A stretch of DNA of 64,000 nucleotides, taken from positions 19,212,302-19,276,301 of the forward strand of contig NC_089732.1 of the NCBI RefSeq assembly GCF_035083965.1, written 5' to 3'. The position numbers and the translations under genes are program-made. Every line of letters starts with the position of its first letter. Position 1 is the first letter of the stretch. Below are positions 6,500 through 51,560 of the stretch, one piece after another. The DNA is from Branchiostoma lanceolatum (lineage: Eukaryota; Chordata; Leptocardii; Amphioxiformes; Branchiostomatidae). The notes below the pieces were generated by a model. It saw only the letters and a list, made by a program, of their open reading frames with translations, had not been told where the DNA came from and ran no database searches.

Positions 6500-6955
6500 A
6501 CTACACACAACGCACACGCCGAAAAACCTGGGATCGCAGGCGACATAAGACAGTACAGAACTTATGTCCTGGAACACAACAACAACAACAAAAACAACAG
6601 GATGATCATGAAAGAAAACAAAGAAGTGAATTTTGACGTAATAAAAGTCTGCACACGTTCTTATTACACCAAACAAAGCTGACGCAACAAGAAACTTGCG
6701 CCCCTTGCCTTCTGCCGCCTGTGTCTAATTTTGTACCCGGAGGTAGAGAAGGTCGCTATACTTAGCTATAGGCGAACGAAGGGCACTGCCTTTCTTTCGC
6801 TCGTCTCAGTAAAAAAATACACACACACCTGTACCACCGTATACCATTAATACAGATATCAGCATTTATTCATTTCCACTTGTTTGGTAATAACAGATGT
6901 ATTCATTACGAATGTGAATGTGTGAGCGATATAATTCTTTCTTTAGGATGTGGGT
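6500..6955. other. Gene-free spacer with short AAC repeat
   Basis: It contains a hairpin near 6542-6568, a short AAC microsatellite near 6573-6598 and a short CA run near 6820. I see no coding signal on either strand. Confidence 0.5.
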
Positions 6956-6971
6956 GGCCCTGAAAAGGGCC
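6956..6971 (-). terminator. Histone 3'-end stem-loop of the SET-domain gene
   Basis: The reverse complement is GGCCCT-TTTC-AGGGCC followed by ACCCACA and, about 10 nt on, AAAGAAAGAATT, a good U7-type downstream element. It lies 28 nt after the stop of the SET-domain ORF, the spacing seen in real histone mRNAs, on a gene that is not a histone. Confidence 0.92.
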
Positions 6972-6999
6972 GGGGTTTCAAAGGGCTGGTTCTTCAGTA

Positions 7000-7977
7000 T
7001 CAGTCTACGGACGGGCGCAAGGTTTGAGAGTTACGAAGGAAATCGGCGCCTTGTCTCTCGCCATAGTCGAACAAGAGTTCCGTTCCCTCCGAAATGTCAC
7101 GGTTAGCTAGTAGGAGAACTGCCGGGTCTGGATCGCCTCCCGTCACTATAGCAAGTTTCAGATTTGCATTATTTCGGCTGTGGTTTATAAGCGCTGCCGG
7201 ATTGCTGTCGGACACATTGCCATCGATGACAAAAACTGCCGCGCCTGTATAAACCCAAAGTAATTTGGCATGGTCTCCTTCTTCTAGAGAGTCAAGGCGT
7301 TGGACTGCTACTGAATTGGCGATTCTCTCTCCTCTGTACTCAGAAACTATACTACCTCGGCGTATGGTTTCCGTAGCGATTGCGCAGAGCCCTGCCGGCC
7401 TGAAGTCTTTCTTGACGAGGGCGGGACGGAACGCAACGGGTCTCTCCGTGGCCGGCATACTGATGTATCTTAACATTTCTTCCCGCGTGGTCAGCGATGG
7501 ATGTCTGGTCGGCCTGGCAAACCGTATTCCAGAATAGCCTCTCTCACCTCCTCGAAGCTTTTTGGCGGTGACTAAGATTGCGTCTCCACGCTTGTTTTTT
7601 GACACCAGCGCAGCTGCAACTTGTCTCTCGAACCGCTTCTTCGTCAGCATGGCTTCCGTCTGTGAGTCATGATCAGAGCGTAGTTCGCAATATGACTGAT
7701 GGGATTGCCTCAGCTCGGAAGTCGTCACGAAATCCTCCAAATCGCCAGTAAAAATTAGGCAATCTCTGAGCCACTCATTCATAAGCGGGAGCGGGACTTT
7801 TCGTTTTCGCCTTCCGTTTAGAACATCTCTAATATGAGATGTGCCTCGTGCTGATCTAGACCCCATCATCTGCTTTCTGATATTGTTTGCTCGCGTTCGA
7901 GCACGACGCTTTGAGAGAAGTAACTCCGAAGTCTTACTTGGACACGATTGGTGTAAATAGTGGTTCTGACAGCGCAT
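7000..7977 (-). CDS. SET-domain protein (KMT5A/SET8-like) with N-terminal winged-helix-like domain
   Basis: This intronless 325-residue ORF has a basic N terminus (about 23-60). Residues 66-153 have a hydrophobic pattern with W69, F119-type RF..Q and RGYSGIRF, resembling the winged-helix (RFX-like) region found with viral and phage primase-helicases; that match is by eye. Residues 196-308 form a SET domain: GLCAIATE (196-203), SEYRGERI (212-219), LINHS (263-267), and NRDISEG through DYGER (292-308). The INHS knot, the DYG tyrosine and the overall spacing are those of lysine methyltransferases and look most like the H4K20 monomethylase KMT5A. There is no cysteine-rich post-SET domain. It is head-to-head with a degenerate paralog at 8242 and ends in a histone stem-loop. 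Predicted role: nuclear histone lysine methylation timed to S phase. Activity and target are inference. Confidence 0.8.
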   Translation of the reverse strand: MRCQNHYLHQSCPSKTSELLLSKRRARTRANNIRKQMMGSRSARGTSHIRDVLNGRRKRKVPLPLMNEWLRDCLIFTGDLEDFVTTSELRQSHQSYCELRSDHDSQTEAMLTKKRFERQVAAALVSKNKRGDAILVTAKKLRGGERGYSGIRFARPTRHPSLTTREEMLRYISMPATERPVAFRPALVKKDFRPAGLCAIATETIRRGSIVSEYRGERIANSVAVQRLDSLEEGDHAKLLWVYTGAAVFVIDGNVSDSNPAALINHSRNNANLKLAIVTGGDPDPAVLLLANRDISEGTELLFDYGERQGADFLRNSQTLRPSVD

Positions 7978-8241
7978 AAAATTTCATCCAATAGTGGCAT
8001 GGTAATCAGCAGTTCGACCAATGAGACACCGTCTACATGTCCGTCCAAAATTTGCATATATTATAACTTCATTTTGTATTTCTAAATTGACGGAGGTAGG
8101 CGGGGCTATAGGATCGGTCTTACTGGCGCCGGTCGCGGTCACCGGTCGCGAATAGCCACATTATTTCTTAGAGTGTCTGGCACGCCATCCAGAAAGCTTT
8201 ATTTATGTGGTGTCTAGCGTTCGACGTTTGCAGGCCGGAAT
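7978..8241. promoter_or_regulatory. Divergent promoter of the two SET-type genes
   Basis: CCAAT motifs lie near 7986 and 8019. An octamer ATTTGCAT sits at 8050-8057 beside an AT-rich TATATTATAA (8056-8066) that could serve the minus-strand gene. A CTTTATTTATG stretch near 8197-8207 could serve the plus-strand gene. The arrangement copies H2A/H2B promoters, but I cannot place start sites. Confidence 0.45.
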
Positions 8242-9495
8242 ATGAAGCATAGAGCTGTACCTTGCCCTCGTCTAAAAACGTGGTTTAGAAAACACGTAGT
8301 CATCACAGGACACTGGCACGATTTTTCACGGAGTTTCTCCCTGTTTCAGTCATACCGACACTTTTTGTCCAAGGCTGACGACAATACATGGCCTCTCGAT
8401 CTCGGTTACAGGCGATTTAGTGGTCAGCTTGCCCGTTTGATGGCCGCTAAATACGTTCCTGTCAACGCAGTACATGATAACTTTCGAGGCTGGAGAGGTG
8501 TACAGATTGTTTGCCACTTTCCTTCTCAATCCTTAATTGAACCCCCGCTTGAACCCGTGAACCTTGCTGAAATTATCGACGTCGATCAAAATCTTCAAGA
8601 AGTACAGGTGGACGTTCCTCGGGGCGGCGTTGGAGAAACAACATCGCAAAGCCAGCAGAATCCCACTGGACAGGGTGATCAGATAGAACAAAGGGCGACA
8701 AACGACAGGACGGCCTATATTATCGACGTCGATCAAAATCTTCAAGAAGTACAGGTGGACGTTCCTCGGGGCGGCGTTGGAGAAACAACATCGCAAAGCC
8801 AGCAGAATCCCACTGGACAGGGTGATCAGATAGAACAAAGGGCGACAAACGACAGGACGGCCTATATTATCGACGTCGATCAAAATCTTCAAGAAGTACA
8901 GGTGGACGTTCCTCGGGGCGGCGTTGGAGAAACAACATCGCAAAGCCAGCAGAATCCCACTGGACAGGGTGATCAGATAGAACAAAGGGCGACAAACGAC
9001 AGGACGGCCTATAGCTACGGCGAAGCCGTTCGACGGAGGAGAGACTTATCTCCGCGGGGATCCTTTCAGTATCCGCCACGCGTTGTCGAGTTTAACAGAC
9101 AATCGCAAGATGGTGACCATGTAGGTGACGAAGGCCTAGCCACTAAAGCGCTGGCAGAAAACACCGTTGTCTCAGAAATTTTTGGAGAGAAAATAAGTAC
9201 AGCTGAGGCAGATCGAAGAGAGGAAGACTGCTACCGTACCATGTGCCCTAAAATGATCAACTACAAAGATCGGAACGGTGCCCTTGTTGTTGTAGACACT
9301 CTAAGCGTCGCTAATAATTCTGTCAGCAAAATTCGCTTTGGGAGGAAAAACGCAAATTTGAAGCTCGTTGTGTGTTTTCAGAACGAAACTGAAGCTGTTC
9401 GCCTGTTTGCTGTTGCATCAAGACGGATAGATGAAGGAGAAGCACTCATTCTAGACACACGTATCCAGCACGACCAGTGTATGCAGGATCAGTGA
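8242..9495 (+). CDS. Degenerate SET-like protein with three 49-residue repeats
   Basis: The 417-residue ORF aligns with the neighbouring SET protein at both ends. The N-terminal region has W14, ITGHWHDF and RGWRGVQI (82-89), like the winged-helix-like part. The C-terminal region has GLATKALAEN (298-307), SEIFGEKI (311-318), NANLKLVV (370-377) and RRIDEGEALILD (394-405). The catalytic INHS is replaced by IRFG and the DYG tyrosine by DTR, so methylation activity is unlikely; it may be a pseudo-enzyme or partner. Residues 111-257 are three 147-bp repeats, apparently identical in DNA, rich in Gln, Asp and Glu. The intact frame and retained stem-loop suggest it is still expressed. A broken relative of its C-terminal part lies at 21822-22147. 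Confidence 0.75.
   Translation: MKHRAVPCPRLKTWFRKHVVITGHWHDFSRSFSLFQSYRHFLSKADDNTWPLDLGYRRFSGQLARLMAAKYVPVNAVHDNFRGWRGVQIVCHFPSQSLIEPPLEPVNLAEIIDVDQNLQEVQVDVPRGGVGETTSQSQQNPTGQGDQIEQRATNDRTAYIIDVDQNLQEVQVDVPRGGVGETTSQSQQNPTGQGDQIEQRATNDRTAYIIDVDQNLQEVQVDVPRGGVGETTSQSQQNPTGQGDQIEQRATNDRTAYSYGEAVRRRRDLSPRGSFQYPPRVVEFNRQSQDGDHVGDEGLATKALAENTVVSEIFGEKISTAEADRREEDCYRTMCPKMINYKDRNGALVVVDTLSVANNSVSKIRFGRKNANLKLVVCFQNETEAVRLFAVASRRIDEGEALILDTRIQHDQCMQDQ
8572..9012 (+). repeat. Three tandem 147-bp in-frame repeats
   Basis: Copies begin at 8572, 8719 and 8866 and look identical at the nucleotide level. Each encodes 49 residues starting IIDVDQNLQEVQVDV and ending NDRTAY. Identity at third codon positions points to very recent expansion or gene conversion. 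Confidence 0.97.
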
Positions 9496-9548
9496 AAAGA
9501 TATCACCACCACGTGGACTTGGCCTCGGCTAATCATCATGAAGAAACC

Positions 9549-9564
9549 GGCCCTTTTCAGGGCC
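9549..9564 (+). terminator. Histone 3'-end stem-loop of the SET-like gene
   Basis: GGCCCT-TTTC-AGGGCC then ACCCACA, 53 nt after the stop codon. AATAAAAGATC follows about 12 nt later and could act as a purine-rich U7 site or a poly(A) signal. Confidence 0.92.
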
Positions 9565-10319
9565 ACCCACATCCGCAATAAAAGATCTATATCGTTCACG
9601 CTACGATGTTGTAATTGTTGCTGCGTTCTTGTTAGGCTTTCACCTTCTACAGAATAGCCTACATTATATGTGCGCGTATTTGGCTGTGGCCGGCCGGCGC
9701 GGGCTGTTTGCGGGAACGGAAAAAAAAGTATACTGTAATTCTTGATTTGTTAGCTGTAACTTAATTTTAGCTAATTTAACTGTCACTAGTCAACCGCTGA
9801 AATTTCATCATCGCTAATATTTGATCACTAATATTTGAGACAGTAATGTTTGTTCAAACCGTTGAAATTAAGTGCCATGACCTACTCCTTTTTCCCCAAA
9901 CCGCTATATTTTCCTGCCGCTATATTAAAGTGATTTACAGAGTATGCCCAGAAATAGACACAAATTAGGCCGTTAGTATTCGTTATGTTTTGTGTGTTTT
10001 GTATCATACTTTTCTTTCCAGCAAACTGCCCGGCGGCACTTTTGTACTCTCTCTTTGATTAGTTATAAAGATAACGCAGGGAGCTGGTAAACAGACTGAT
10101 AATTTCTACCATTTCCGCCGTTGTTTCTTTATTCAATACCCACGTGCAACGCATGCACACGCCATACAGTTCTGCATCACACACCAACAACGGCAGAAAG
10201 AAAACCCAAATAGCAAAGAAATCGTGAGGAAGGGAGATCATGTTTAAAGAAAACAAAAAAGCAAAGAAAGTGTGAAAAGGTAGGATTTAAACCGTAAAGT
10301 TAGGAAACAAAGTAATGCT
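9565..10319. other. Gene-free flank with dispersed island repeats
   Basis: No gene is visible. It contains CGGGCTGTTTGCGGGAACGG (about 9698-9717), which recurs in variant form at 13345, 13555 and 15150. A stretch at 9968-10145, including CGTTATGTTTT and TTTATTCAATAC, recurs in part at 13712-13800 and 15178-15330. Confidence 0.55.
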
Positions 10320-10378
10320 TTCTACCACGTCCGTGCATGTTGATCCACTATGAATTTGCATAGAGATCTGATATAAAT
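10320..10378 (+). promoter_or_regulatory. H2B-type promoter of the divergent H2B gene
   Basis: TTCTACCACGTCCG (10320-10333), octamer ATTTGCAT (10354-10361) and TATAAAT (10372-10378) appear in the same order and near the same spacing as before the H2B relic at 6202-6263. The ATG follows 52 nt after the TATA box. Confidence 0.82.
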
Positions 10379-10430
10379 CAATCATTGCACGAGCGCATTC
10401 ACTCTTGTCTGAAACCCGAGCGCCATCGCC

Positions 10431-10769
10431 ATGTCCGACAAACCCAGGGTCACAGGAGACAAGAAGCGTCGAAAGAGAAGAAAGAGAAGGAACACAACCT
10501 TCGATGTCTACGTAAACAAGGTCCTTAAACTGATGCACCCCGGGACCAGACTTTCAAGAATGACCATGGCCATCGTGAACTCCTTTCTGAACGACATCTT
10601 ACAGCGGATCTCTGTCGAGGCTTCTCTCCTGGCTCACTACAACAAGCGCTCCACAATCGGCCCCCGGGAACTCCAGACAGCCGTGAGGCTGATTTTACCC
10701 GGCCAACTGGCCAAGTTCTCCGCCATCGAAGGCACCAAGGCCGTCAGAAGGTACGCCAGCTCCAAGTGA
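10431..10769 (+). CDS. Divergent intact histone H2B variant
   Basis: The 112-residue ORF has a short, very basic tail ([10 protein letters not shown], 11-20) and a full histone fold: [54 protein letters not shown], and the C-terminal helix ending YASSK. It is about 12 residues shorter than usual H2B because of the tail. Substitutions hit functional sites. The residue matching Lys120, the ubiquitylation site, is Arg107. The acidic-patch Glu105 is Gln92. The Glu113 equivalent (E100) is kept. The ORF has its own promoter and stem-loop and is identical in the two macro-repeat copies. It should pair with H2A in nucleosomes that resist H2B ubiquitylation and have a weakened acidic patch. Germline-type H2B variants are a plausible parallel. 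A young, still-open relic is the alternative. Confidence 0.88.
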
Positions 10770-10797
10770 GTCTATCAGCGCCGCTCGAGACAACCCC

Positions 10798-10813
10798 GGC
10801 CTTTTTCAAGGCC
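10798..10813 (+). terminator. Histone stem-loop with compensatory base-pair change
   Basis: GGCCTT-TTTC-AAGGCC, 28 nt after the H2B variant stop, followed by ACCCACA. The sixth pair, next to the loop, is unchanged in type, and the fifth pair is T-A instead of C-G on both sides, so pairing is kept. AATAAAGAGCT follows about 12 nt later. Confidence 0.92.
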
Positions 10814-11184
10814 ACCCACATCTTCAATAAAGAGCTGTAGCATCACGCCTTCAAATCAGGACGTACACTGTTATTAATATGTCCAAACACCACATGCCAC
10901 CGGCCTTACAATATGTATCTACACTAGTAAGCCTGGCCAATTGGCCCATCTCATCGCACAGACAGACAAGAACACTGCATTTGGAGTTTTAAAGCGTTCT
11001 TACCAACGCTCTTATCAACAAAACAGAGTAACAAGGTCTCAAACAGAATAACAAGGTCTGCGAGTTTCGGAATAGTTTTAGTATGAGAACATAACTATCG
11101 GTCATCGTCCTTTGTCATACAATGTTTGAATGTGCAAAGTGAAGAAAAGTGACACGAACACAGTCCGTTTTGGGGTAGTTTGGT
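10814..11184. other. Gene-free spacer
   Basis: Only a short imperfect direct repeat containing ATAACAAGGTCT/GTAACAAGGTCT (about 11020-11060) stands out. Confidence 0.5.
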
Positions 11185-11200
11185 GGCCCTGAAAAGGGCC
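11185..11200 (-). terminator. Histone 3'-end stem-loop without a clear gene
   Basis: The reverse complement is GGCCCT-TTTC-AGGGCC preceded by AACCCC and followed by ACCAAAC instead of ACCCACA. It implies a minus-strand transcript coming from 11.2-11.75 kb. The flank change suggests decay. Confidence 0.85.
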
Positions 11201-11298
11201 GGGGTTTTTGGTAGAGATAACACGGGTTTAAATCCTAGTCTTGTCCTGACAGGTTGCATGAAGCATAAAGTTTGCGTCCCTGAAAATGTCCAAGAATT

Positions 11299-11553
11299 TT
11301 AGTTAGGCGATAGAAGCTCATCTAAAAATTCCCAAACACTTCGAGACTTTACTCCTGCCCGTGGCCTTGCCGACTTCTCAACATTCTTGTCTTCTCCATT
11401 TCTTTGGCAGGGACAAGCGTGAGATGAAATATCCCCTGCCGTGTCTCCAGGCAAAAGTAGCTCTTTATAGGCCCAAGCATTTCGCCTCGCCGTCCCTCGC
11501 AGGTAATTCTGTGACGACCTGTCTCCGACCTCCATCTTTTTGTCGGACAGCAA
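11299..11553 (-). pseudogene. Candidate broken gene upstream of the orphan stem-loop
   Basis: Overlapping minus-strand frames (one of 84 codons ending EFLDELLSPN at 11299, another of 97 codons at 11349-11642 containing DIPAKIIPF) lie 98 nt or more before the stem-loop. Neither has a convincing start: the 84-codon frame opens with TTG. The DIPxKI motif is repeated in the adjacent copy of a direct repeat of about 60 bp (about 11591-11643 and 11655-11703). My reading is a frame-shifted remnant of another stem-loop gene. The family is not recognised. Confidence 0.35.
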
Positions 11554-12040
11554 ACAATCTCGAAACCTGCTTTTGTCGTGAGACGAAAGGGGATAATCTT
11601 GGCGGGAATGTCTGGCGTGGCGTCAAGCCTCAACCTGTTCACAGTAGAAGAAATGGATTAATCTTTCCAGGAATGTCTGTGACGAAGCCGAAACCTGTTC
11701 ACAGGAATTTGCCTTATCTGTGTTTCAGATCACTGTTTCCCTTGTGAGGTGAGAAATATCAGCAAAGAGTAACTAACGCTTGCTTTGAATATTTATTCAA
11801 GTTCCTTTTTTTCGTACACTAGTTGTAGAAGAACTATTGTAGAAGAAATATTCACTAAAAAGGGGATTTTACTTGTTTAATCTCAGGGCGTTATTATCGC
11901 AACATGGTAGGATATAGTTTACCATATCGACAGCCACGGAAAAGAAACAAGTGACCCTGATACATCGTTGTTTATTTAGTCACATCTCTATGACAGGTGG
12001 AGAAAGTGAAAGAGACAGTCCTTTCTTTATAGTAGTGGGT

Positions 12041-12056
12041 GGCCCTGAAAAGGGCC
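12041..12056 (-). terminator. Histone 3'-end stem-loop of the 133-aa gene
   Basis: The reverse complement is GGCCCT-TTTC-AGGGCC then ACCCAC, 23 nt after the stop. AAAGAAAGGAC lies about 12 nt downstream as a U7-type element. Confidence 0.92.
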
Positions 12057-12079
12057 TGTTTTCTGTCTTTAACCAATGC

Positions 12080-12481
12080 CTAGGCACAGTTTTTGTTTCC
12101 ACGGCGGGACGGCTTGAGTATGATGTTTCTTGGGAAGAGGTCGAGTTTGAGTTTGATTATTTTCGGGGTCACGCGCTTGGGAGGCTTGTCAGCTGTCTTG
12201 ACGTCTTGTAAAGCTTTCGCCATAGGAAGGGGTAAAGGCGTTTTGAAAACGGCAACGTACTCTTTGAAAAGGCGAAAGAAACGCAGCTTTTGGGCGGTGT
12301 CCATTCTTTCTTGCGAGGCCAAGAGTGCTGAGATTGGATAAGGCAGATGTGTGTAGGAGGCGGCGACATACATGGACGACATATGCAGCCAGCGCAGCTT
12401 GCCCTTGTAGCGGCGGTCCTCTAATGTCTTGCCGCCGAGTCGCCGCTTCTTTCGCGAGGGAGAGCTTCCCGCAGTTGACAT
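12080..12481 (-). CDS. Basic 133-residue protein of unknown family with histone-type 3' end
   Basis: The N terminus is short and basic (SRKKRRLGGK, 9-18; RRYKGKLRW, 23-31). The middle is likely helical (ERMDTAQKLRFFRLFKEYVA), and the C-terminal part is Lys/Pro-rich (PKRVTPKIIKLKL, then ILKPSRRG). I recognise no family. The size, strong positive charge and basic tail would suit a chromatin protein, but the core histone signatures are absent. The gene is divergent from a 106-residue ORF at 12662 across a 180-bp region with four CCAAT-type motifs, and ends in a histone stem-loop. A 5'-truncated copy was inserted at 14307-14927. Coding status rests on the clean ATG frame plus promoter and 3' element. 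Confidence 0.65.
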   Translation of the reverse strand: MSTAGSSPSRKKRRLGGKTLEDRRYKGKLRWLHMSSMYVAASYTHLPYPISALLASQERMDTAQKLRFFRLFKEYVAVFKTPLPLPMAKALQDVKTADKPPKRVTPKIIKLKLDLFPRNIILKPSRRGNKNCA

Positions 12482-12661
12482 ACTGCTAAGTGCTCGTTGC
12501 GAGTCAGAGAAGTGTTTCTCCTTTCCGTTTCAAGTAGATGCACGAACTTTTGCGGCCTCCAATCTGATTGGCTGTGGAATTCTGTATTCTCTGATTGGCT
12601 GTACGCGCTGATTGGTTGAATCCGTTACCACGTAAGTTCGGAAAACACGCGCTCCTCCCCC
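12482..12661. promoter_or_regulatory. Bidirectional histone-type promoter (133-aa / 106-aa pair)
   Basis: One CCAAT (12559-12563) and three ATTGG (12567-12571, 12594-12598, 12611-12615) lie between the two start codons. The last three sit in a repeated CTGATTGG context. TTACCACGT near 12626 partly matches the CTACCACGT motif of the H2B promoters. Confidence 0.7.
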
Positions 12662-12982
12662 ATGAATTCCAGTATCGTCTTCTGGCCGTCCAAGATGAAC
12701 ATAGAATTTATCCAGCCGGCTGAGCAGGGAGATTGGATGGGGTCGATTTTGATAAGAGCGGACACACCAGGCTTACCTCAGCTACTGTATGAACTAGAAA
12801 TGGATCTCGTTCAAATGGACGCCGATTTCACCATCCCCCTATTTGACGTCACCATTTGGCAGAAATCGTACGCTGTGATCATCTTTTACACGATCCTCGA
12901 CTTTCACCAGACCATCACAACTCTGAAAACCTCTCACCCTAATGTTGCCTTCATGGTACTCGGGCCTGGCTCATCATTTTGA
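12662..12982 (+). CDS. 106-residue protein of unknown family with histone-type 3' end
   Basis: The ORF starts at ATG 12662; a second in-frame ATG follows 11 codons later. The sequence is hydrophobic and looks alpha/beta, with short motifs GDWMGSILI, LEMDLVQMDADF, WQKSYAVIIF and HPNVAFMV. There is no signal peptide, and the protein is not basic like a histone. The ORF at 13968 is a paralog: GW/GDW, the VDFVELNADFSFSLF counterpart, ERSYKLIIF and HPNVTFTV line up at equal spacing. Conservation of that pattern supports real coding. Stem-loop and divergent promoter are shared with its neighbours. Function is unknown. Confidence 0.62.
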   Translation: MNSSIVFWPSKMNIEFIQPAEQGDWMGSILIRADTPGLPQLLYELEMDLVQMDADFTIPLFDVTIWQKSYAVIIFYTILDFHQTITTLKTSHPNVAFMVLGPGSSF

Positions 12983-13018
12983 AGACTTGGACGGCGCTCG
13001 GATCGGATCTAACAAACC

Positions 13019-13034
13019 GGCCCTTCTCAGGGCC
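13019..13034 (+). terminator. Histone stem-loop with altered loop (TCTC)
   Basis: GGCCCT-TCTC-AGGGCC, 36 nt after the 106-aa stop, then ACCCACATCCGCCAAAAGG. The loop differs from TTTC in one base; a pyrimidine there may still be read by SLBP. Confidence 0.88.
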
Positions 13035-13307
13035 ACCCACATCCGCCAAAAGGATATATCGTTCACGCTGCTATTGTTAGGGTTTTACTTTGTGTGTAGC
13101 ATTACATAGACTTCGCTCAGCAATATTTTATATTTTCGCCAAATGAAAATCCACAGAAACGTTAAAATGTAGGCGCCAGGCGAAGCGATGTAAAGATAGG
13201 CTAGAAGGAGGAACACACGACCCCTTCTCAACGGGCTTTTTTGGAGACGCAATTGTTTAGCTTTTACCGTTCCCCTCGTCGTACCGCTTGTTTGCTGCTC
13301 ACTGCTC

Positions 13308-13510
13308 ATGCTAGGGTCACATTTCCAAACCGGGGACCGGCCGGGCAGTCTTTGGGAACGAAAAGTATGATATAAAAGACAACAAAAACACAAAACGTAC
13401 CCAAAATTATTCAAGAGCGTAGCTTGTGCAAATGTATGGACACACACTTTGATTTTTCGTTTCCACAAATAGCCCGGTCGGGCCCCGGTTACCAAATGTG
13501 ACCCTAGCAT
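13308..13510. mobile_element. 203-bp MITE-like element with terminal inverted repeats
   Basis: ATGCTAGGGTCACATTT (13308-13324) is perfectly inverted at 13494-13510. Pairing continues imperfectly inward for about 60 bp (CCGGGG, CCGGGC, AACGAAAA). There is no coding capacity of its own. A diverged half-element beginning GCTAAGGTCACTATTCCC follows at 13526-13600. Related GGGAACGAAAAGTATGAT segments occur elsewhere in the island. The 203-bp size and structure fit a non-autonomous DNA transposon. I could not define a target-site duplication. Confidence 0.7.
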
Positions 13511-13525
13511 TACTAACCTCTGTAT

Positions 13526-13600
13526 GCTAAGGTCACTATTCCCAACCCGCGGCCCGGCCCGGCATTTTGCGGGAACGAAAAGTATGATGTAAAAGTAAAA
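13526..13600. repeat. Half-copy of the MITE-like terminus
   Basis: GCTAAGGTCACTATTCCCAA then GCCCGGCATTTTGCGGGAAC and AAAAGTATGATGTAAAAG parallels 13310-13375 with scattered changes and has no inverted partner. Confidence 0.6.
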
Positions 13601-13931
13601 CAAAACGCAAACGAAAAGTTTCAATAATAAATCATTTGTGTATACTATTGATATGAATTGTGTTAATTTTCATTCACGCAAAACAGTCCGGCCGATGCAT
13701 TAGCAGAGACCGTCACATATAAATGAGACGTAGGAAGCTTGTACACAAACTGATATTTTCTACAATTTCCGCCTTTGCTCGTTTATTCAATACGTGTAAG
13801 TTCTGTACGGTGAAATGTGTACATGCATACATTCTCAAGTCTCTATCTCCGACATTACGGCGCGCCGCTGACCCCGCCCTCTCCCATACGCTCAATTTTG
13901 GCCACGCCCCAAGGAACTCAAATCTGTCGTT

Positions 13932-14285
13932 ATGGCATGGTTGTTTCAGTGGCACTTTCGATCCTAGATGTTTTACCTCGAGGATAGTATCTCTGCGAGC
14001 GGGCAGGGCTGGCTGATTTCGTTATTGATATCAGCCAACAACCTAGGCCTACATAGCGATGTCATCAACTCACTCGAAGTAGATTTCGTTGAATTGAATG
14101 CCGACTTCTCCTTCAGTCTATTCGGCATCACCTTGTGGGAGAGATCGTACAAACTGATCATCTTTAACTCATCCACAGACTTCCTCCTGGCGATGATATC
14201 TCTGAGGGCTGAACACCCTAACGTTACATTCACGGTACTTGTACTTGCACTGGATCATCATTTCGACGTCCACATGTTCATGTAG
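13932..14285 (+). CDS. 105-residue paralog of the 106-aa protein, N terminus interrupted
   Basis: ATG 13968 opens 105 codons with GQGWLISLL, LEVDFVELNADF, LWERSYKLIIF and HPNVTFTVLV, matching the 12662 protein. An earlier in-frame ATG at 13932 gives 11 codons and then TAG immediately before ATG 13968. The paralog reads through at the equivalent place. So either the protein now starts at the internal ATG or the gene is dying. Its stem-loop was originally 22 nt after the stop, but a 656-bp insertion now pushes it to 14964, about 680 nt away. I annotate the span from the older ATG. Confidence 0.5.
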
Positions 14286-14603
14286 CACACCCAGAATCGA
14301 ATACAGGTGAGGTGAGAAATATCAGCAAAGAGTAACTAACGCTTGCTTTGAATATTTATTCAAGTTCCTTTTTTTCGTACACTAGTTGTAGAAGAACTAT
14401 TGTAGAAGAAATATTCACTAAAAAGGGGATTTTACTTGTTTAATCTCAGGGCGTTATTATCGCAACATGGTAGGATATAGTTTACCATATCGACAGCCAC
14501 GGAAAAGAAACAAGTGACCCTGATACATCGTTGTTTATTTAGTCACATCTCTATGACAGGTGGAGAAAGTGAAAGAGACAGTCCTTTCTTTATAGTAGTG
14601 GGT

Positions 14604-14619
14604 GGCCCTGAAAAGGGCC
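14604..14619 (-). terminator. Histone stem-loop carried by the insertion
   Basis: Copy of the element at 12041-12056 with the same flanks. Confidence 0.9.
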
Positions 14620-14642
14620 TGTTTTCTGTCTTTAACCAATGC

Positions 14643-14927
14643 CTAGGCACAGTTTTTGTTTCCACGGCGGGACGGCTTGAGTATGATGTTTCTTGGGAAG
14701 AGGTCGAGTTTGAGTTTGATTATTTTCGGGGTCACGCGCATGGGAGGCTTGTCAGCTGTCTTGACGTCTTGTAAAGCTTTCGCCATAGGAAGGGGTAAAG
14801 GCGTTTTGAAAACGGCAACGTACTCTTTGAAAAGGCGAAAGAAACGCAGCTTTTGGGCGGTGTCCATTCTTTCTTGCGAGGCCAAGAGTGCTGAGATCGG
14901 ATAAGGCAGATGTGTGTAGGAGGCGGC
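14643..14927 (-). pseudogene. 5'-truncated copy of the 133-aa gene
   Basis: It contains the C-terminal two thirds of the 12080-12481 protein, with Met for Lys in PMRVTPK, down to the same stop. The first 38-39 codons and the promoter were left out of the duplicated segment. An in-frame ATG leaves an 80-codon ORF that has no evident promoter. Confidence 0.85.
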
Positions 14928-14963
14928 ACATGTTCATGTAGCACACCCAGAATCGAATACACC

Positions 14964-14979
14964 GGCCCTTTTCAGGGCC
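14964..14979 (+). terminator. Displaced histone stem-loop of the 105-aa gene
   Basis: GGCCCT-TTTC-AGGGCC followed by ACCAAAATCTG rather than ACCCACA, with CACAAAGATC downstream. The upstream 35 bp duplicate the end of the 105-aa ORF. Confidence 0.88.
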
Positions 14980-15478
14980 ACCAAAATCTGCACAAAGATC
15001 TCTATCGTTCACGCTATGATTCCTGCGTTATTGTAAGGCTTTCACTTTCTACAGATTAGCCATTAGCCAGATCATTATATTCACTATTAGCCTAAAGCGT
15101 ACAGGTATTTGGCCGGCTGTGGCCGCATTTCCGAACCGGGTCCCGACCAGGCTGTCTGCAGGAACGGAAAATGAGGCCGTTAGTACTCGTTATGTTTTCT
15201 GCGTTTCTTTTCATACTTTACTTGCCCGCAAACTGCCCAGCGTTACTCTTGTAGTCTCCCGTACATTAATTATAAAGGAAACGCTGGAAGCTTGTACCAT
15301 CTCTTTTTTCTTTATTCAATACGTGTAAGTTCTATGGTGAAATGTGTACATGCATACCTATCCGTCCGGACTGTGGGAAGGCCTAGCTTTGTTTTTCCCG
15401 TCTGACATCAAGATGTGAAAGGTTTTGTTTTAGCCGCTAACGATGTGAGAATTGCGAATTAATGCATTCCAATGCAAA
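14980..15478. other. Gene-free flank with dispersed island repeats
   Basis: Segments resemble 9690-10145 and 13690-13820: GGCTGTCTGCAGGAACGGAAAATG (first half near 15145), CGTTAGTACTCGTTATGTTTT, and TTTATTCAATACGTGTAAGT (15309-15328). They look like ancient copies of the downstream flank of a stem-loop gene, suggesting the island grew by segmental duplication. Confidence 0.5.
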
Positions 15479-43417: not shown

Positions 43418-43873
43418 ACTACACACAACGCACACGCCGAAAAACCTGGGATCGCAGGCGACATAAGACAGTACAGAACTTATGTCCTGGAACACAACAA
43501 CAACAACAAAAACAACAGGATGATCATGAAAGAAAACAAAGAAGTGAATTTTGACGTAATAAAAGTCTGCACACGTTCTTATTACACCAAACAAAGCTGA
43601 CGCAACAAGAAACTTGCGCCCCTTGCCTTCTGCCGCCTGTGTCTAATTTTGTACCCGGAGGTAGAGAAGGTCGCTATACTTAGCTATAGGCGAACGAAGG
43701 GCACTGCCTTTCTTTCGCTCGTCTCAGTAAAAAAATACACACACACCTGTACCACCGTATACCATTAATACAGATATCAGCATTTATTCATTTCCACTTG
43801 TTTGGTAATAACAGATGTATTCATTACGAATGTGAATGTGTGAGCGATATAATTCTTTCTTTAGGATGTGGGT

Positions 43874-43889
43874 GGCCCTGAAAAGGGCC
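43874..43889 (-). terminator. Histone stem-loop of SET-domain gene (copy 2)
   Basis: As 6956-6971. Confidence 0.92.
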
Positions 43890-43917
43890 GGGGTTTCAAA
43901 GGGCTGGTTCTTCAGTA

Positions 43918-44895
43918 TCAGTCTACGGACGGGCGCAAGGTTTGAGAGTTACGAAGGAAATCGGCGCCTTGTCTCTCGCCATAGTCGAACAAGAGTTCCG
44001 TTCCCTCCGAAATGTCACGGTTAGCTAGTAGGAGAACTGCCGGGTCTGGATCGCCTCCCGTCACTATAGCAAGTTTCAGATTTGCATTATTTCGGCTGTG
44101 GTTTATAAGCGCTGCCGGATTGCTGTCGGACACATTGCCATCGATGACAAAAACTGCCGCGCCTGTATAAACCCAAAGTAATTTGGCATGGTCTCCTTCT
44201 TCTAGAGAGTCAAGGCGTTGGACTGCTACTGAATTGGCGATTCTCTCTCCTCTGTACTCAGAAACTATACTACCTCGGCGTATGGTTTCCGTAGCGATTG
44301 CGCAGAGCCCTGCCGGCCTGAAGTCTTTCTTGACGAGGGCGGGACGGAACGCAACGGGTCTCTCCGTGGCCGGCATACTGATGTATCTTAACATTTCTTC
44401 CCGCGTGGTCAGCGATGGATGTCTGGTCGGCCTGGCAAACCGTATTCCAGAATAGCCTCTCTCACCTCCTCGAAGCTTTTTGGCGGTGACTAAGATTGCG
44501 TCTCCACGCTTGTTTTTTGACACCAGCGCAGCTGCAACTTGTCTCTCGAACCGCTTCTTCGTCAGCATGGCTTCCGTCTGTGAGTCATGATCAGAGCGTA
44601 GTTCGCAATATGACTGATGGGATTGCCTCAGCTCGGAAGTCGTCACGAAATCCTCCAAATCGCCAGTAAAAATTAGGCAATCTCTGAGCCACTCATTCAT
44701 AAGCGGGAGCGGGACTTTTCGTTTTCGCCTTCCGTTTAGAACATCTCTAATATGAGATGTGCCTCGTGCTGATCTAGACCCCATCATCTGCTTTCTGATA
44801 TTGTTTGCTCGCGTTCGAGCACGACGCTTTGAGAGAAGTAACTCCGAAGTCTTACTTGGACACGATTGGTGTAAATAGTGGTTCTGACAGCGCAT
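43918..44895 (-). CDS. SET-domain protein, KMT5A/SET8-like (copy 2)
   Basis: Protein identical to 7000-7977, including INHS and DYG motifs, promoter and stem-loop. Confidence 0.8.
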   Translation of the reverse strand: MRCQNHYLHQSCPSKTSELLLSKRRARTRANNIRKQMMGSRSARGTSHIRDVLNGRRKRKVPLPLMNEWLRDCLIFTGDLEDFVTTSELRQSHQSYCELRSDHDSQTEAMLTKKRFERQVAAALVSKNKRGDAILVTAKKLRGGERGYSGIRFARPTRHPSLTTREEMLRYISMPATERPVAFRPALVKKDFRPAGLCAIATETIRRGSIVSEYRGERIANSVAVQRLDSLEEGDHAKLLWVYTGAAVFVIDGNVSDSNPAALINHSRNNANLKLAIVTGGDPDPAVLLLANRDISEGTELLFDYGERQGADFLRNSQTLRPSVD

Positions 44896-45159
44896 AAAAT
44901 TTCATCCAATAGTGGCATGGTAATCAGCAGTTCGACCAATGAGACACCGTCTACATGTCCGTCCAAAATTTGCATATATTATAACTTCATTTTGTATTTC
45001 TAAATTGACGGAGGTAGGCGGGGCTATAGGATCGGTCTTACTGGCGCCGGTCGCGGTCACCGGTCGCGAATAGCCACATTATTTCTTAGAGTGTCTGGCA
45101 CGCCATCCAGAAAGCTTTATTTATGTGGTGTCTAGCGTTCGACGTTTGCAGGCCGGAAT
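44896..45159. promoter_or_regulatory. Divergent promoter of the SET-type pair (copy 2)
   Basis: As 7978-8241. Confidence 0.45.
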
Positions 45160-46413
45160 ATGAAGCATAGAGCTGTACCTTGCCCTCGTCTAAAAACGTG
45201 GTTTAGAAAACACGTAGTCATCACAGGACACTGGCACGATTTTTCACGGAGTTTCTCCCTGTTTCAGTCATACCGACACTTTTTGTCCAAGGCTGACGAC
45301 AATACATGGCCTCTCGATCTCGGTTACAGGCGATTTAGTGGTCAGCTTGCCCGTTTGATGGCCGCTAAATACGTTCCTGTCAACGCAGTACATGATAACT
45401 TTCGAGGCTGGAGAGGTGTACAGATTGTTTGCCACTTTCCTTCTCAATCCTTAATTGAACCCCCGCTTGAACCCGTGAACCTTGCTGAAATTATCGACGT
45501 CGATCAAAATCTTCAAGAAGTACAGGTGGACGTTCCTCGGGGCGGCGTTGGAGAAACAACATCGCAAAGCCAGCAGAATCCCACTGGACAGGGTGATCAG
45601 ATAGAACAAAGGGCGACAAACGACAGGACGGCCTATATTATCGACGTCGATCAAAATCTTCAAGAAGTACAGGTGGACGTTCCTCGGGGCGGCGTTGGAG
45701 AAACAACATCGCAAAGCCAGCAGAATCCCACTGGACAGGGTGATCAGATAGAACAAAGGGCGACAAACGACAGGACGGCCTATATTATCGACGTCGATCA
45801 AAATCTTCAAGAAGTACAGGTGGACGTTCCTCGGGGCGGCGTTGGAGAAACAACATCGCAAAGCCAGCAGAATCCCACTGGACAGGGTGATCAGATAGAA
45901 CAAAGGGCGACAAACGACAGGACGGCCTATAGCTACGGCGAAGCCGTTCGACGGAGGAGAGACTTATCTCCGCGGGGATCCTTTCAGTATCCGCCACGCG
46001 TTGTCGAGTTTAACAGACAATCGCAAGATGGTGACCATGTAGGTGACGAAGGCCTAGCCACTAAAGCGCTGGCAGAAAACACCGTTGTCTCAGAAATTTT
46101 TGGAGAGAAAATAAGTACAGCTGAGGCAGATCGAAGAGAGGAAGACTGCTACCGTACCATGTGCCCTAAAATGATCAACTACAAAGATCGGAACGGTGCC
46201 CTTGTTGTTGTAGACACTCTAAGCGTCGCTAATAATTCTGTCAGCAAAATTCGCTTTGGGAGGAAAAACGCAAATTTGAAGCTCGTTGTGTGTTTTCAGA
46301 ACGAAACTGAAGCTGTTCGCCTGTTTGCTGTTGCATCAAGACGGATAGATGAAGGAGAAGCACTCATTCTAGACACACGTATCCAGCACGACCAGTGTAT
46401 GCAGGATCAGTGA
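45160..46413 (+). CDS. Degenerate SET-like protein with three 49-residue repeats (copy 2)
   Basis: Protein identical to 8242-9495. The repeat number (three, 45490-45930) is also unchanged, although such arrays usually vary quickly. Confidence 0.75.
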   Translation: MKHRAVPCPRLKTWFRKHVVITGHWHDFSRSFSLFQSYRHFLSKADDNTWPLDLGYRRFSGQLARLMAAKYVPVNAVHDNFRGWRGVQIVCHFPSQSLIEPPLEPVNLAEIIDVDQNLQEVQVDVPRGGVGETTSQSQQNPTGQGDQIEQRATNDRTAYIIDVDQNLQEVQVDVPRGGVGETTSQSQQNPTGQGDQIEQRATNDRTAYIIDVDQNLQEVQVDVPRGGVGETTSQSQQNPTGQGDQIEQRATNDRTAYSYGEAVRRRRDLSPRGSFQYPPRVVEFNRQSQDGDHVGDEGLATKALAENTVVSEIFGEKISTAEADRREEDCYRTMCPKMINYKDRNGALVVVDTLSVANNSVSKIRFGRKNANLKLVVCFQNETEAVRLFAVASRRIDEGEALILDTRIQHDQCMQDQ

Positions 46414-46466
46414 AAAGATATCACCACCACGTGGACTTGGCCTCGGCTAATCATCATGAAGAAACC

Positions 46467-46482
46467 GGCCCTTTTCAGGGCC
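46467..46482 (+). terminator. Histone stem-loop of SET-like gene (copy 2)
   Basis: As 9549-9564. Confidence 0.92.
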
Positions 46483-47237
46483 ACCCACATCCGCAATAAA
46501 AGATCTATATCGTTCACGCTACGATGTTGTAATTGTTGCTGCGTTCTTGTTAGGCTTTCACCTTCTACAGAATAGCCTACATTATATGTGCGCGTATTTG
46601 GCTGTGGCCGGCCGGCGCGGGCTGTTTGCGGGAACGGAAAAAAAAGTATACTGTAATTCTTGATTTGTTAGCTGTAACTTAATTTTAGCTAATTTAACTG
46701 TCACTAGTCAACCGCTGAAATTTCATCATCGCTAATATTTGATCACTAATATTTGAGACAGTAATGTTTGTTCAAACCGTTGAAATTAAGTGCCATGACC
46801 TACTCCTTTTTCCCCAAACCGCTATATTTTCCTGCCGCTATATTAAAGTGATTTACAGAGTATGCCCAGAAATAGACACAAATTAGGCCGTTAGTATTCG
46901 TTATGTTTTGTGTGTTTTGTATCATACTTTTCTTTCCAGCAAACTGCCCGGCGGCACTTTTGTACTCTCTCTTTGATTAGTTATAAAGATAACGCAGGGA
47001 GCTGGTAAACAGACTGATAATTTCTACCATTTCCGCCGTTGTTTCTTTATTCAATACCCACGTGCAACGCATGCACACGCCATACAGTTCTGCATCACAC
47101 ACCAACAACGGCAGAAAGAAAACCCAAATAGCAAAGAAATCGTGAGGAAGGGAGATCATGTTTAAAGAAAACAAAAAAGCAAAGAAAGTGTGAAAAGGTA
47201 GGATTTAAACCGTAAAGTTAGGAAACAAAGTAATGCT

Positions 47238-47296
47238 TTCTACCACGTCCGTGCATGTTGATCCACTATGAATTTGCATAGAGATCTGATATAAAT
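47238..47296 (+). promoter_or_regulatory. H2B-type promoter (copy 2)
   Basis: As 10320-10378. Confidence 0.82.
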
Positions 47297-47348
47297 CAAT
47301 CATTGCACGAGCGCATTCACTCTTGTCTGAAACCCGAGCGCCATCGCC

Positions 47349-47687
47349 ATGTCCGACAAACCCAGGGTCACAGGAGACAAGAAGCGTCGAAAGAGAAGAA
47401 AGAGAAGGAACACAACCTTCGATGTCTACGTAAACAAGGTCCTTAAACTGATGCACCCCGGGACCAGACTTTCAAGAATGACCATGGCCATCGTGAACTC
47501 CTTTCTGAACGACATCTTACAGCGGATCTCTGTCGAGGCTTCTCTCCTGGCTCACTACAACAAGCGCTCCACAATCGGCCCCCGGGAACTCCAGACAGCC
47601 GTGAGGCTGATTTTACCCGGCCAACTGGCCAAGTTCTCCGCCATCGAAGGCACCAAGGCCGTCAGAAGGTACGCCAGCTCCAAGTGA
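47349..47687 (+). CDS. Divergent histone H2B variant (copy 2)
   Basis: Protein identical to 10431-10769, including Arg107 and Gln92. Confidence 0.88.
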
Positions 47688-47715
47688 GTCTATCAGCGCC
47701 GCTCGAGACAACCCC

Positions 47716-47731
47716 GGCCTTTTTCAAGGCC
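47716..47731 (+). terminator. Histone stem-loop with compensatory change (copy 2)
   Basis: As 10798-10813. Confidence 0.92.
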
Positions 47732-48102
47732 ACCCACATCTTCAATAAAGAGCTGTAGCATCACGCCTTCAAATCAGGACGTACACTGTTATTAATATGT
47801 CCAAACACCACATGCCACCGGCCTTACAATATGTATCTACACTAGTAAGCCTGGCCAATTGGCCCATCTCATCGCACAGACAGACAAGAACACTGCATTT
47901 GGAGTTTTAAAGCGTTCTTACCAACGCTCTTATCAACAAAACAGAGTAACAAGGTCTCAAACAGAATAACAAGGTCTGCGAGTTTCGGAATAGTTTTAGT
48001 ATGAGAACATAACTATCGGTCATCGTCCTTTGTCATACAATGTTTGAATGTGCAAAGTGAAGAAAAGTGACACGAACACAGTCCGTTTTGGGGTAGTTTG
48101 GT

Positions 48103-48118
48103 GGCCCTGAAAAGGGCC
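48103..48118 (-). terminator. Histone stem-loop without clear gene (copy 2)
   Basis: As 11185-11200. Confidence 0.85.
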
Positions 48119-48216
48119 GGGGTTTTTGGTAGAGATAACACGGGTTTAAATCCTAGTCTTGTCCTGACAGGTTGCATGAAGCATAAAGTTTGCGTCCCTG
48201 AAAATGTCCAAGAATT

Positions 48217-48471
48217 TTAGTTAGGCGATAGAAGCTCATCTAAAAATTCCCAAACACTTCGAGACTTTACTCCTGCCCGTGGCCTTGCCGACTTCTCAAC
48301 ATTCTTGTCTTCTCCATTTCTTTGGCAGGGACAAGCGTGAGATGAAATATCCCCTGCCGTGTCTCCAGGCAAAAGTAGCTCTTTATAGGCCCAAGCATTT
48401 CGCCTCGCCGTCCCTCGCAGGTAATTCTGTGACGACCTGTCTCCGACCTCCATCTTTTTGTCGGACAGCAA
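48217..48471 (-). pseudogene. Candidate broken stem-loop gene (copy 2)
   Basis: As 11299-11553. Confidence 0.35.
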
Positions 48472-48958
48472 ACAATCTCGAAACCTGCTTTTGTCGTGAG
48501 ACGAAAGGGGATAATCTTGGCGGGAATGTCTGGCGTGGCGTCAAGCCTCAACCTGTTCACAGTAGAAGAAATGGATTAATCTTTCCAGGAATGTCTGTGA
48601 CGAAGCCGAAACCTGTTCACAGGAATTTGCCTTATCTGTGTTTCAGATCACTGTTTCCCTTGTGAGGTGAGAAATATCAGCAAAGAGTAACTAACGCTTG
48701 CTTTGAATATTTATTCAAGTTCCTTTTTTTCGTACACTAGTTGTAGAAGAACTATTGTAGAAGAAATATTCACTAAAAAGGGGATTTTACTTGTTTAATC
48801 TCAGGGCGTTATTATCGCAACATGGTAGGATATAGTTTACCATATCGACAGCCACGGAAAAGAAACAAGTGACCCTGATACATCGTTGTTTATTTAGTCA
48901 CATCTCTATGACAGGTGGAGAAAGTGAAAGAGACAGTCCTTTCTTTATAGTAGTGGGT

Positions 48959-48974
48959 GGCCCTGAAAAGGGCC
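48959..48974 (-). terminator. Histone stem-loop of the 133-aa gene (copy 2)
   Basis: As 12041-12056. Confidence 0.92.
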
Positions 48975-48997
48975 TGTTTTCTGTCTTTAACCAATGC

Positions 48998-49399
48998 CTA
49001 GGCACAGTTTTTGTTTCCACGGCGGGACGGCTTGAGTATGATGTTTCTTGGGAAGAGGTCGAGTTTGAGTTTGATTATTTTCGGGGTCACGCGCTTGGGA
49101 GGCTTGTCAGCTGTCTTGACGTCTTGTAAAGCTTTCGCCATAGGAAGGGGTAAAGGCGTTTTGAAAACGGCAACGTACTCTTTGAAAAGGCGAAAGAAAC
49201 GCAGCTTTTGGGCGGTGTCCATTCTTTCTTGCGAGGCCAAGAGTGCTGAGATTGGATAAGGCAGATGTGTGTAGGAGGCGGCGACATACATGGACGACAT
49301 ATGCAGCCAGCGCAGCTTGCCCTTGTAGCGGCGGTCCTCTAATGTCTTGCCGCCGAGTCGCCGCTTCTTTCGCGAGGGAGAGCTTCCCGCAGTTGACAT
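48998..49399 (-). CDS. Basic 133-residue unknown protein (copy 2)
   Basis: Protein identical to 12080-12481. Confidence 0.65.
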   Translation of the reverse strand: MSTAGSSPSRKKRRLGGKTLEDRRYKGKLRWLHMSSMYVAASYTHLPYPISALLASQERMDTAQKLRFFRLFKEYVAVFKTPLPLPMAKALQDVKTADKPPKRVTPKIIKLKLDLFPRNIILKPSRRGNKNCA

Positions 49400-49579
49400 A
49401 CTGCTAAGTGCTCGTTGCGAGTCAGAGAAGTGTTTCTCCTTTCCGTTTCAAGTAGATGCACGAACTTTTGCGGCCTCCAATCTGATTGGCTGTGGAATTC
49501 TGTATTCTCTGATTGGCTGTACGCGCTGATTGGTTGAATCCGTTACCACGTAAGTTCGGAAAACACGCGCTCCTCCCCC
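49400..49579. promoter_or_regulatory. Bidirectional histone-type promoter (copy 2)
   Basis: Same CCAAT/ATTGG set as 12482-12661. Confidence 0.7.
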
Positions 49580-49900
49580 ATGAATTCCAGTATCGTCTTC
49601 TGGCCGTCCAAGATGAACATAGAATTTATCCAGCCGGCTGAGCAGGGAGATTGGATGGGGTCGATTTTGATAAGAGCGGACACACCAGGCTTACCTCAGC
49701 TACTGTATGAACTAGAAATGGATCTCGTTCAAATGGACGCCGATTTCACCATCCCCCTATTTGACGTCACCATTTGGCAGAAATCGTACGCTGTGATCAT
49801 CTTTTACACGATCCTCGACTTTCACCAGACCATCACAACTCTGAAAACCTCTCACCCTAATGTTGCCTTCATGGTACTCGGGCCTGGCTCATCATTTTGA
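49580..49900 (+). CDS. 106-residue unknown protein (copy 2)
   Basis: Protein identical to 12662-12982. Confidence 0.62.
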   Translation: MNSSIVFWPSKMNIEFIQPAEQGDWMGSILIRADTPGLPQLLYELEMDLVQMDADFTIPLFDVTIWQKSYAVIIFYTILDFHQTITTLKTSHPNVAFMVLGPGSSF

Positions 49901-49936
49901 AGACTTGGACGGCGCTCGGATCGGATCTAACAAACC

Positions 49937-49952
49937 GGCCCTTCTCAGGGCC
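49937..49952 (+). terminator. Histone stem-loop with TCTC loop (copy 2)
   Basis: Same loop change as 13019-13034. Confidence 0.88.
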
Positions 49953-50225
49953 ACCCACATCCGCCAAAAGGATATATCGTTCACGCTGCTATTGTTAGGG
50001 TTTTACTTTGTGTGTAGCATTACATAGACTTCGCTCAGCAATATTTTATATTTTCGCCAAATGAAAATCCACAGAAACGTTAAAATGTAGGCGCCAGGCG
50101 AAGCGATGTAAAGATAGGCTAGAAGGAGGAACACACGACCCCTTCTCAACGGGCTTTTTTGGAGACGCAATTGTTTAGCTTTTACCGTTCCCCTCGTCGT
50201 ACCGCTTGTTTGCTGCTCCCTGCTC

Positions 50226-50428
50226 ATGCTAGGGTCACATTTCCAAACCGGGGACCGGCCGGGCAGTCTTTGGGAACGAAAAGTATGATATAAAAGACAA
50301 CAAAAACACAAAACGTACCCAAAATTATTCAAGAGCGTAGCTTGTGCAAATGTATGGACACACACTTTGATTTTTCGTTTCCACAAATAGCCCGGTCGGG
50401 CCCCGGTTACCAAATGTGACCCTAGCAT
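50226..50428. mobile_element. 203-bp MITE-like element (copy 2)
   Basis: As 13308-13510. An a/c difference lies just outside at 50219. Confidence 0.7.
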
Positions 50429-50849
50429 TACTAACCTCTGTATGCTAAGGTCACTATTCCCAACCCGCGGCCCGGCCCGGCATTTTGCGGGAACGAAAAG
50501 TATGATGTAAAAGTAAAACAAAACGCAAACGAAAAGTTTCAATAATAAATCATTTGTGTATACTATTGATATGAATTGTGTTAATTTTCATTCACGCAAA
50601 ACAGTCCGGCCGATGCATTAGCAGAGACCGTCACATATAAATGAGACGTAGGAAGCTTGTACACAAACTGATATTTTCTACAATTTCCGCCTTTGCTCGT
50701 TTATTCAATACGTGTAAGTTCTGTACGGTGAAATGTGTACATGCATACATTCTCAAGTCTCTATCTCCGACATTACGGCGCGCCGCTGACCCCGCCCTCT
50801 CCCATACGCTCAATTTTGGCCACGCCCCAAGGAACTCAAATCTGTCGTT

Positions 50850-51203
50850 ATGGCATGGTTGTTTCAGTGGCACTTTCGATCCTAGATGTTTTACCTCGAG
50901 GATAGTATCTCTGCGAGCGGGCAGGGCTGGCTGATTTCGTTATTGATATCAGCCAACAACCTAGGCCTACATAGCGATGTCATCAACTCACTCGAAGTAG
51001 ATTTCGTTGAATTGAATGCCGACTTCTCCTTCAGTCTATTCGGCATCACCTTGTGGGAGAGATCGTACAAACTGATCATCTTTAACTCATCCACAGACTT
51101 CCTCCTGGCGATGATATCTCTGAGGGCTGAACACCCTAACGTTACATTCACGGTACTTGTACTTGCACTGGATCATCATTTCGACGTCCACATGTTCATG
51201 TAG
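50850..51203 (+). CDS. 105-residue paralog, interrupted N terminus (copy 2)
   Basis: Same TAG before the internal ATG (50886) as at 13968. Confidence 0.5.
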
Positions 51204-51521
51204 CACACCCAGAATCGAATACAGGTGAGGTGAGAAATATCAGCAAAGAGTAACTAACGCTTGCTTTGAATATTTATTCAAGTTCCTTTTTTTCGTACAC
51301 TAGTTGTAGAAGAACTATTGTAGAAGAAATATTCACTAAAAAGGGGATTTTACTTGTTTAATCTCAGGGCGTTATTATCGCAACATGGTAGGATATAGTT
51401 TACCATATCGACAGCCACGGAAAAGAAACAAGTGACCCTGATACATCGTTGTTTATTTAGTCACATCTCTATGACAGGTGGAGAAAGTGAAAGAGACAGT
51501 CCTTTCTTTATAGTAGTGGGT

Positions 51522-51537: not shown

Positions 51538-51560
51538 TGTTTTCTGTCTTTAACCAATGC

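Follow-up and report, generated by a model that had tools for sequence, protein, structure and literature searches.

Can genes that encode no histone end in the manner of replication-dependent histone genes? To our knowledge, the stem-loop 3′ end has been regarded as private to replication-dependent histone mRNAs. The question is raised by a stretch of 64,000 nucleotides (nt) from the amphioxus Branchiostoma lanceolatum (contig NC_089732.1, positions 19,212,302 to 19,276,301 of the forward strand), which was analysed as a whole and is called the window below. Here, stem-loops of the histone type follow the stop codons of a SET-domain open reading frame (ORF), of its SET-like neighbour (SETL) and of two small ORFs of 133 and 106 amino acids (aa), and a further one once served an ORF of 105 aa. 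According to PMC2781718, SLBP had never been implicated in the direct regulation of non-histone genes; processing by SLBP and the U7 small nuclear ribonucleoprotein (snRNP) is outlined in PMC5706932. Judging from the sequence, we on balance favor the conclusion that these non-histone ORFs carry histone-type gene ends, with expression predicted to resemble that of the replication-dependent histones.

Stem-loop elements behind the reading frames

Scanning of the window with the pattern GGCYCTTTTCAGRGCC, with up to 3 mismatches allowed and 100 shuffles as the control, yielded 26 matches as against 1.56 in the shuffles (standard deviation 1.23, largest 7). The covariance model RF00032 (Histone3) gave 24 matches at or above its gathering score, that is, 12 per 36,918-base-pair (bp) unit of the tandem repeat that makes up the window; two of the 26 relaxed-pattern matches, those at 11276 and 48194 with 3 mismatches apiece, are absent from the Rfam set. 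The ORFs in question and their elements are the following.

7000..7977, minus strand: SET-domain ORF, 325 aa (PF00856, 5.5e-12)
6931..6976, minus strand: Histone3 element of the SET gene, stem-loop at 6956-6971; 39.6 bits (gathering score 34), 28 nt after the stop
8242..9495, plus strand: SETL ORF, 417 aa (Pfam SET E 0.0092, below the curated cut-off)
9544..9588, plus strand: Histone3 element of the SETL gene, stem-loop at 9549-9564; Rfam match, 53 nt after the stop
12080..12481, minus strand: basic ORF, 133 aa
12015..12061, minus strand: Histone3 element of the 133-aa ORF, stem-loop at 12041-12056; Rfam match, 23 nt after the stop
12662..12982, plus strand: ORF, 106 aa; structure model with predicted local distance difference test score (pLDDT) 65.8 and predicted template modelling score (pTM) 0.61
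13014..13059, plus strand: Histone3 element of the 106-aa ORF, stem-loop at 13019-13034; Rfam match, 36 nt after the stop
13968..14285, plus strand: ORF, 105 aa, a paralogue of the 106-aa ORF by sequence comparison (40% identical)
14959..15005, plus strand: Histone3 element once serving the 105-aa ORF, stem-loop at 14964-14979; Rfam match

The original prediction had placed perfect or near-perfect stem-loops behind the SET, SETL, 133-aa and 106-aa stops on the correct strand, and this was confirmed, with all four elements above the RF00032 gathering score. The 16-nt stem-loop is perfect at the SET, SETL and 133-aa elements, three of these four, as well as at the 105-aa element, with a single loop change at the 106-aa element (13019). 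The predicted ACCCACA flank held for SET, SETL and the 106-aa ORF and not for the other two, where it reads ACCCACT (133 aa) and ACCAAAA (14964); all four elements that follow a stop directly combine the shorter ACCCA flank with a coding-strand position 23-53 nt past that stop. In the SET element, ACCCACA is followed by the downstream motif AAAGAAAGA, and the expectation of a downstream motif common to the elements was borne out as well: about 40 nt are alike across nine elements (mean pairwise identity 0.76, 0.56, 0.59 and 0.48 per ten columns), past which the similarity is 0.07-0.10 for 30 columns, followed farther downstream by a partial rise to 0.27-0.39, in a gappy alignment.

This placement is not readily obtained by chance. 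When 12 elements were put at random within 4000-15100 in 200,000 rounds, all four ORFs were served in 0 of the 200,000 and three in 22, compared with the observed four of four. Because the four ORFs had been chosen for carrying elements, the test was also run in reverse, from elements to ORFs, with random sites in 1-25000 on both strands (the observed sites included), each checked for an ATG-initiated ORF of at least 100 aa whose end lies 15-60 nt upstream. Such an ORF precedes five of the 12 elements (the four and an intact H2B-like gene) versus 0.0156 per random site, figures that, like those of the placement test, come from elements that are not independent and include duplicates. The longest ORF in 400 simulated regions averaged 133 aa and reached at most 257 aa, and SET and SETL, at 325 and 417 aa, are longer; the lengths of the 133- and 106-aa ORFs are as expected by chance.

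The claim that the element at 14964 formerly served the 105-aa ORF also held up. What now intervenes is a copy of part of the neighbouring 133-aa gene:

14271..14961, no strand assigned: insertion that duplicates the 3′ part of the 133-aa gene, Histone3 element (14604) included, and is flanked by 35-bp direct repeats

The direct repeats, at 14271-14305 and 14927-14961, bracket the insert, which is 99.5% identical to 11744-12369 over 626 columns; with the insert removed, the distance from the 105-aa stop to the 14964 stem is about 22 nt, as counted from the sequence.

Compared with the 3′ ends of metazoan replication-dependent histone genes (RF00032, SLBP/U7 snRNP), the ends described here share the stem-loop, the ACCCA flank and the purine-rich downstream block, and the genes share the 23-53 nt from stop to stem, the uninterrupted ORFs and the head-to-head pairing; they differ in that the profiles do not place the encoded proteins among the histones and that pairing with human U7 is weak. 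For the replication-dependent histones of Caenorhabditis elegans, PMC12803260 gives a stop-to-stem distance of 31-57 nt, to which the distances here are close, with two of the four (23 and 28 nt) slightly shorter.

Encoded proteins and head-to-head spacers

The SET ORF belongs to a conserved family. Three homologues passed among 7997 scored candidates, two of them Branchiostoma floridae proteins, and all three align with 62-65% identity, the NHS and ELLFDYG motifs being kept. The B. floridae set-1-like proteins (LOC118408087 and another; P0002 and P0003) belong to the same family from SHIRD to the C-terminal region and show no intron-like gap in the alignment. Because the family begins near SHIRD, the true start of SET is probably Met37/38 (7869/7866), near the starts of the homologues. 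Upstream of the SET start, similarity to P0001 continues across a stop codon of the window, suggesting that the DNA there is related but does not code.

Among solved structures, KMT5A/SETD8 rank first (4e-10), with 4ldg, a Toxoplasma-like SET protein, among the matches (1.2e-9), and KMT2 and NSD structures score 1.4e-5 or weaker. KMT5A (SETD8, PR-Set7), an H4K20 methyltransferase, is thus the best structure match for the SET domain; the match begins at residue 196, and the initial ~190 residues of SET are without one. SET combines the SET domain with both NHS and ELLFDYG, and we infer that it is a putative KMT5A-type lysine methyltransferase, whose supply the histone-type gene end would tie to S phase. 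SETL, unlike KMT5A, lacks both motifs: at 27% aligned identity to SET, it reads RFG where SET has NHS and LDTR where SET has FDYG, and it holds three 49-aa tandem copies. SETL is likely not catalytic and may be a non-catalytic partner.

None of the five proteins (SET, SETL, 133, 106 and 105 aa) has a match to the histone-fold family PF00125 at E up to 1, and for the three small ones no match to any Pfam family was found at that threshold, nor did the search for their relatives find any. The structure model of the 133-aa protein is uninformative (pLDDT 49.8); that of the 106-aa protein tentatively points to a ferredoxin-like fold without a specific relative.

A new observation is that both gene pairs, SET/SETL and 133/106, lie head-to-head like H2A/H2B, with histone-promoter motifs in the spacers. 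The CCAAT box and the octamer are histone promoter motifs, and they occur as follows.

7978..8241, no strand assigned: SET/SETL spacer, CCAAT at 7988 and 8018, octamer ATTTGCAT at 8050, facing the plus-strand gene
12482..12661, no strand assigned: 133/106 spacer, CCAAT at 12559 (plus strand) and at 12567, 12594 and 12611 (minus strand)

In the SET/SETL spacer, TTATAA stands 3 nt after the octamer, and the H2A/H2B spacer has the same order and orientation of motifs (CCAAT at 6168, octamer ATTTGCAT at 6240, TATAAA at 6258). Upstream of the H2B-like gene, too, the octamer is followed by TATAAA, with a 10-nt gap identical to that of H2B. The octamer occurs seven times per 36.9-kilobase (kb) unit, and three of the seven are the upstream copies of H2A/H2B, SET/SETL and H2B-like. 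The 133/106 spacer packs its four CCAAT boxes into 180 nt, compared with a background of 1.64 per kb.

Local decay and competing readings

The repeat unit holds broken H3, H2A and H2B genes along with an intact diverged H2B, and therefore a reading by capture and decay needs to be weighed. The state of the neighbourhood, the small ORFs, the spacers and the processing signals all provide observations that weigh against histone-type expression of the ORFs, and these are set out here together with the features on which they depend.

10431..10769, plus strand: intact diverged H2B-like ORF, 112 aa (PF00125, 2.1e-16)
10793..10838, plus strand: Histone3 element of the H2B-like gene; Rfam match, 28 nt after the stop
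11160-11205, minus strand: orphan Histone3 element (11185); Rfam match

Under the first alternative, which we hold to be unlikely while giving it real weight, unequal exchange in a decaying histone neighbourhood placed the 3′ ends of histone genes after ORFs unrelated to them, the resulting genes are silent or being lost, and the stem-loops are functionless hitch-hikers. The canonical histones of the unit are indeed broken: H3 (4040-4331) lacks its middle and has an extra tail piece at 5128-5202, both H2A genes (4826-5166 and 5697-6049) are broken near residues 31-38, and the canonical H2B remnant (6282-6502) is broken and has no Histone3 element. Of these four broken histones within 4040-6502, three (H3 and both H2A) retain their 3′ Histone3 element. 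The orphan element at 11185, flanked like the 105-aa element by ACCAA rather than ACCCA, is preceded by no ORF of at least 60 aa ending 15-60 nt before it and by no recognised gene, and the inserted fragment of the 133-aa gene is further debris of this kind. The SET, SETL, 133-aa and 106-aa ORFs, which stand directly before their elements, are nevertheless open beside the broken histones, SET is conserved and retains its catalytic motifs, and the stems are still perfect or compensated. The H2B-like gene, 63% identical to canonical H2B over 90 aa, has a stem-preserving change with both sides of the stem altered.

A decayed SETL fragment at 21821-22144 bears on both sides of this argument. It is 92% identical to SETL in nucleotides over 303 columns, carries a stop and frameshifts, and is one more sign of local decay; no Histone3 element accompanies it. 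The SETL copy with the stem-loop has stayed open, whereas the copy without one has acquired these lesions at 8% divergence, a single contrast that favors constraint.

The small ORFs, with chance-like lengths (133 and 106 aa) and without detected relatives, fit decay more easily. For the 106/105 pair, the ratio of nonsynonymous to synonymous substitution rates (dN/dS) is 0.65 (95% range 0.37-1.06, with 96% of the bootstrap replicates under 1), and for the core it is 0.67 (0.36-1.22, with 92% under 1); under simulated neutral change, both core frames were still open in 5% of the runs. On the same strand, the DNA of the two genes matches mainly in the coding core (70% over 196) and around the stem-loop (80% over 64). 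Taken together, these comparisons point only weakly to selection on the small ORFs. The promoter likeness is uneven, too: no octamer was found in the 133/106 spacer and neither CCAAT nor octamer upstream of the 105-aa ORF, the best alignment between spacers (H2A/H2B and SET/SETL) is weak at 64% over 58 nt (E 0.016), and an octamer with a TATA-like word also occurs within the SET ORF (7162).

A second alternative, that the genes are functional and their main mRNA is polyadenylated downstream, with the stem-loop used in some cells or never, appears improbable to us, and the processing signals speak both for and against it. AATAAA lies 13 nt past the SETL stem and A(A/T)TAAA 86 nt past the SET stem and 65 nt past the 133-aa stem; no A(A/T)TAAA was found within 300 nt of the 106- and 105-aa elements. 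Polyadenylation signals adjoin the hairpins of C. elegans histone genes as well, according to PMC1924863. Pairing was computed with the human U7 5′ end, which may differ from that of the host. Strong pairing was obtained for the elements of H2A and the H2B-like gene (z −4.5, −4.6 and −6.9) and weak pairing for those of SET (−1.8), SETL (−1.3), 133 (−2.0), 106 (−0.8) and 105 (−0.1), values that hold for the human sequence; the element of histone H3 itself also pairs weakly (z −0.5), as does the orphan. Retention of both the stem-loop and the downstream block argues against this alternative.

That the small ORFs encode histones of extreme divergence, which would leave the SET pair as the only non-histone genes, is very improbable: the 133-aa protein is basic and helical in its poor model, and fast-evolving germline histones are known, but no Pfam match at E up to 1 was obtained for any of the three, and the 106-aa model has, with moderate confidence, a beta-alpha-beta-beta-alpha-beta order that is not the histone fold.

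The 36.9-kb tandem repeat may be a true array or an assembly duplication. Positions 1-26553 and 36919-63473 are 99.94% identical, the alignment containing 6 substitutions and 10 gap columns, and the arrangement recurs once:

43849..51923, no strand assigned: second tandem copy of the SET-to-105 arrangement, at an offset of 36,918

Between the units lie a satellite that repeats about every 570 bp (25373-35984) and then short repeats of ~45 bp (35977-37850). An intact ORF of 815 aa at 19283-21730 has no stem-loop, and searches with it brought up neither a Pfam family above cut-off nor a matching PDB sequence nor a close relative among viruses.

A possible histone regulon beyond histones

Returning to the favored reading, that non-histone ORFs carry histone-type gene ends, we infer that non-histone genes appropriated histone expression cassettes, each a divergent promoter with an SLBP/U7 3′ end. 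The histone-type control in the original prediction is partly supported, by the histone-type 3′ ends, the two head-to-head spacers with histone-promoter motifs and the SET family with intact motifs; its “co-regulated chromatin-assembly gene set” was an overreach, given the lost catalytic motifs of SETL and the lack of relatives found for the 133-, 106- and 105-aa proteins. Under such a takeover, histone gene pairs in the cluster would have supplied the SET pair and the 133/106 pair with a divergent promoter and with 3′ ends; alternatively, these pairs may have exchanged ends with histone gene pairs. Transcription would be divergent, from a likely H2A/H2B-style promoter, and SLBP and the U7 snRNP would cut the mRNA past the stem-loop, leaving no poly(A) tail. 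The SLBP-bound mRNA would be kept only during DNA copying and removed once replication stops, and for a KMT5A-type enzyme the supply of a histone writer would be coupled to that of histones.

In its widest form, the proposal is tentative: an amphioxus histone regulon may extend beyond histones to a KMT5A-type methyltransferase, a non-catalytic partner and two new families, with poly(A)-minus, SLBP/U7-processed mRNAs and histone-type divergent promoters. If intact non-histone genes do use the stem-loop, it could be asked directly if genes of any kind can be tied to DNA synthesis through the SLBP/U7 pathway, and the route by which genes acquire such ends, through takeover of histone pairs, would become addressable. 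It would also be asked whether histone-modifying enzymes come in lockstep with histones, for in this amphioxus a chromatin writer would be dosed by DNA replication, as its substrate is.

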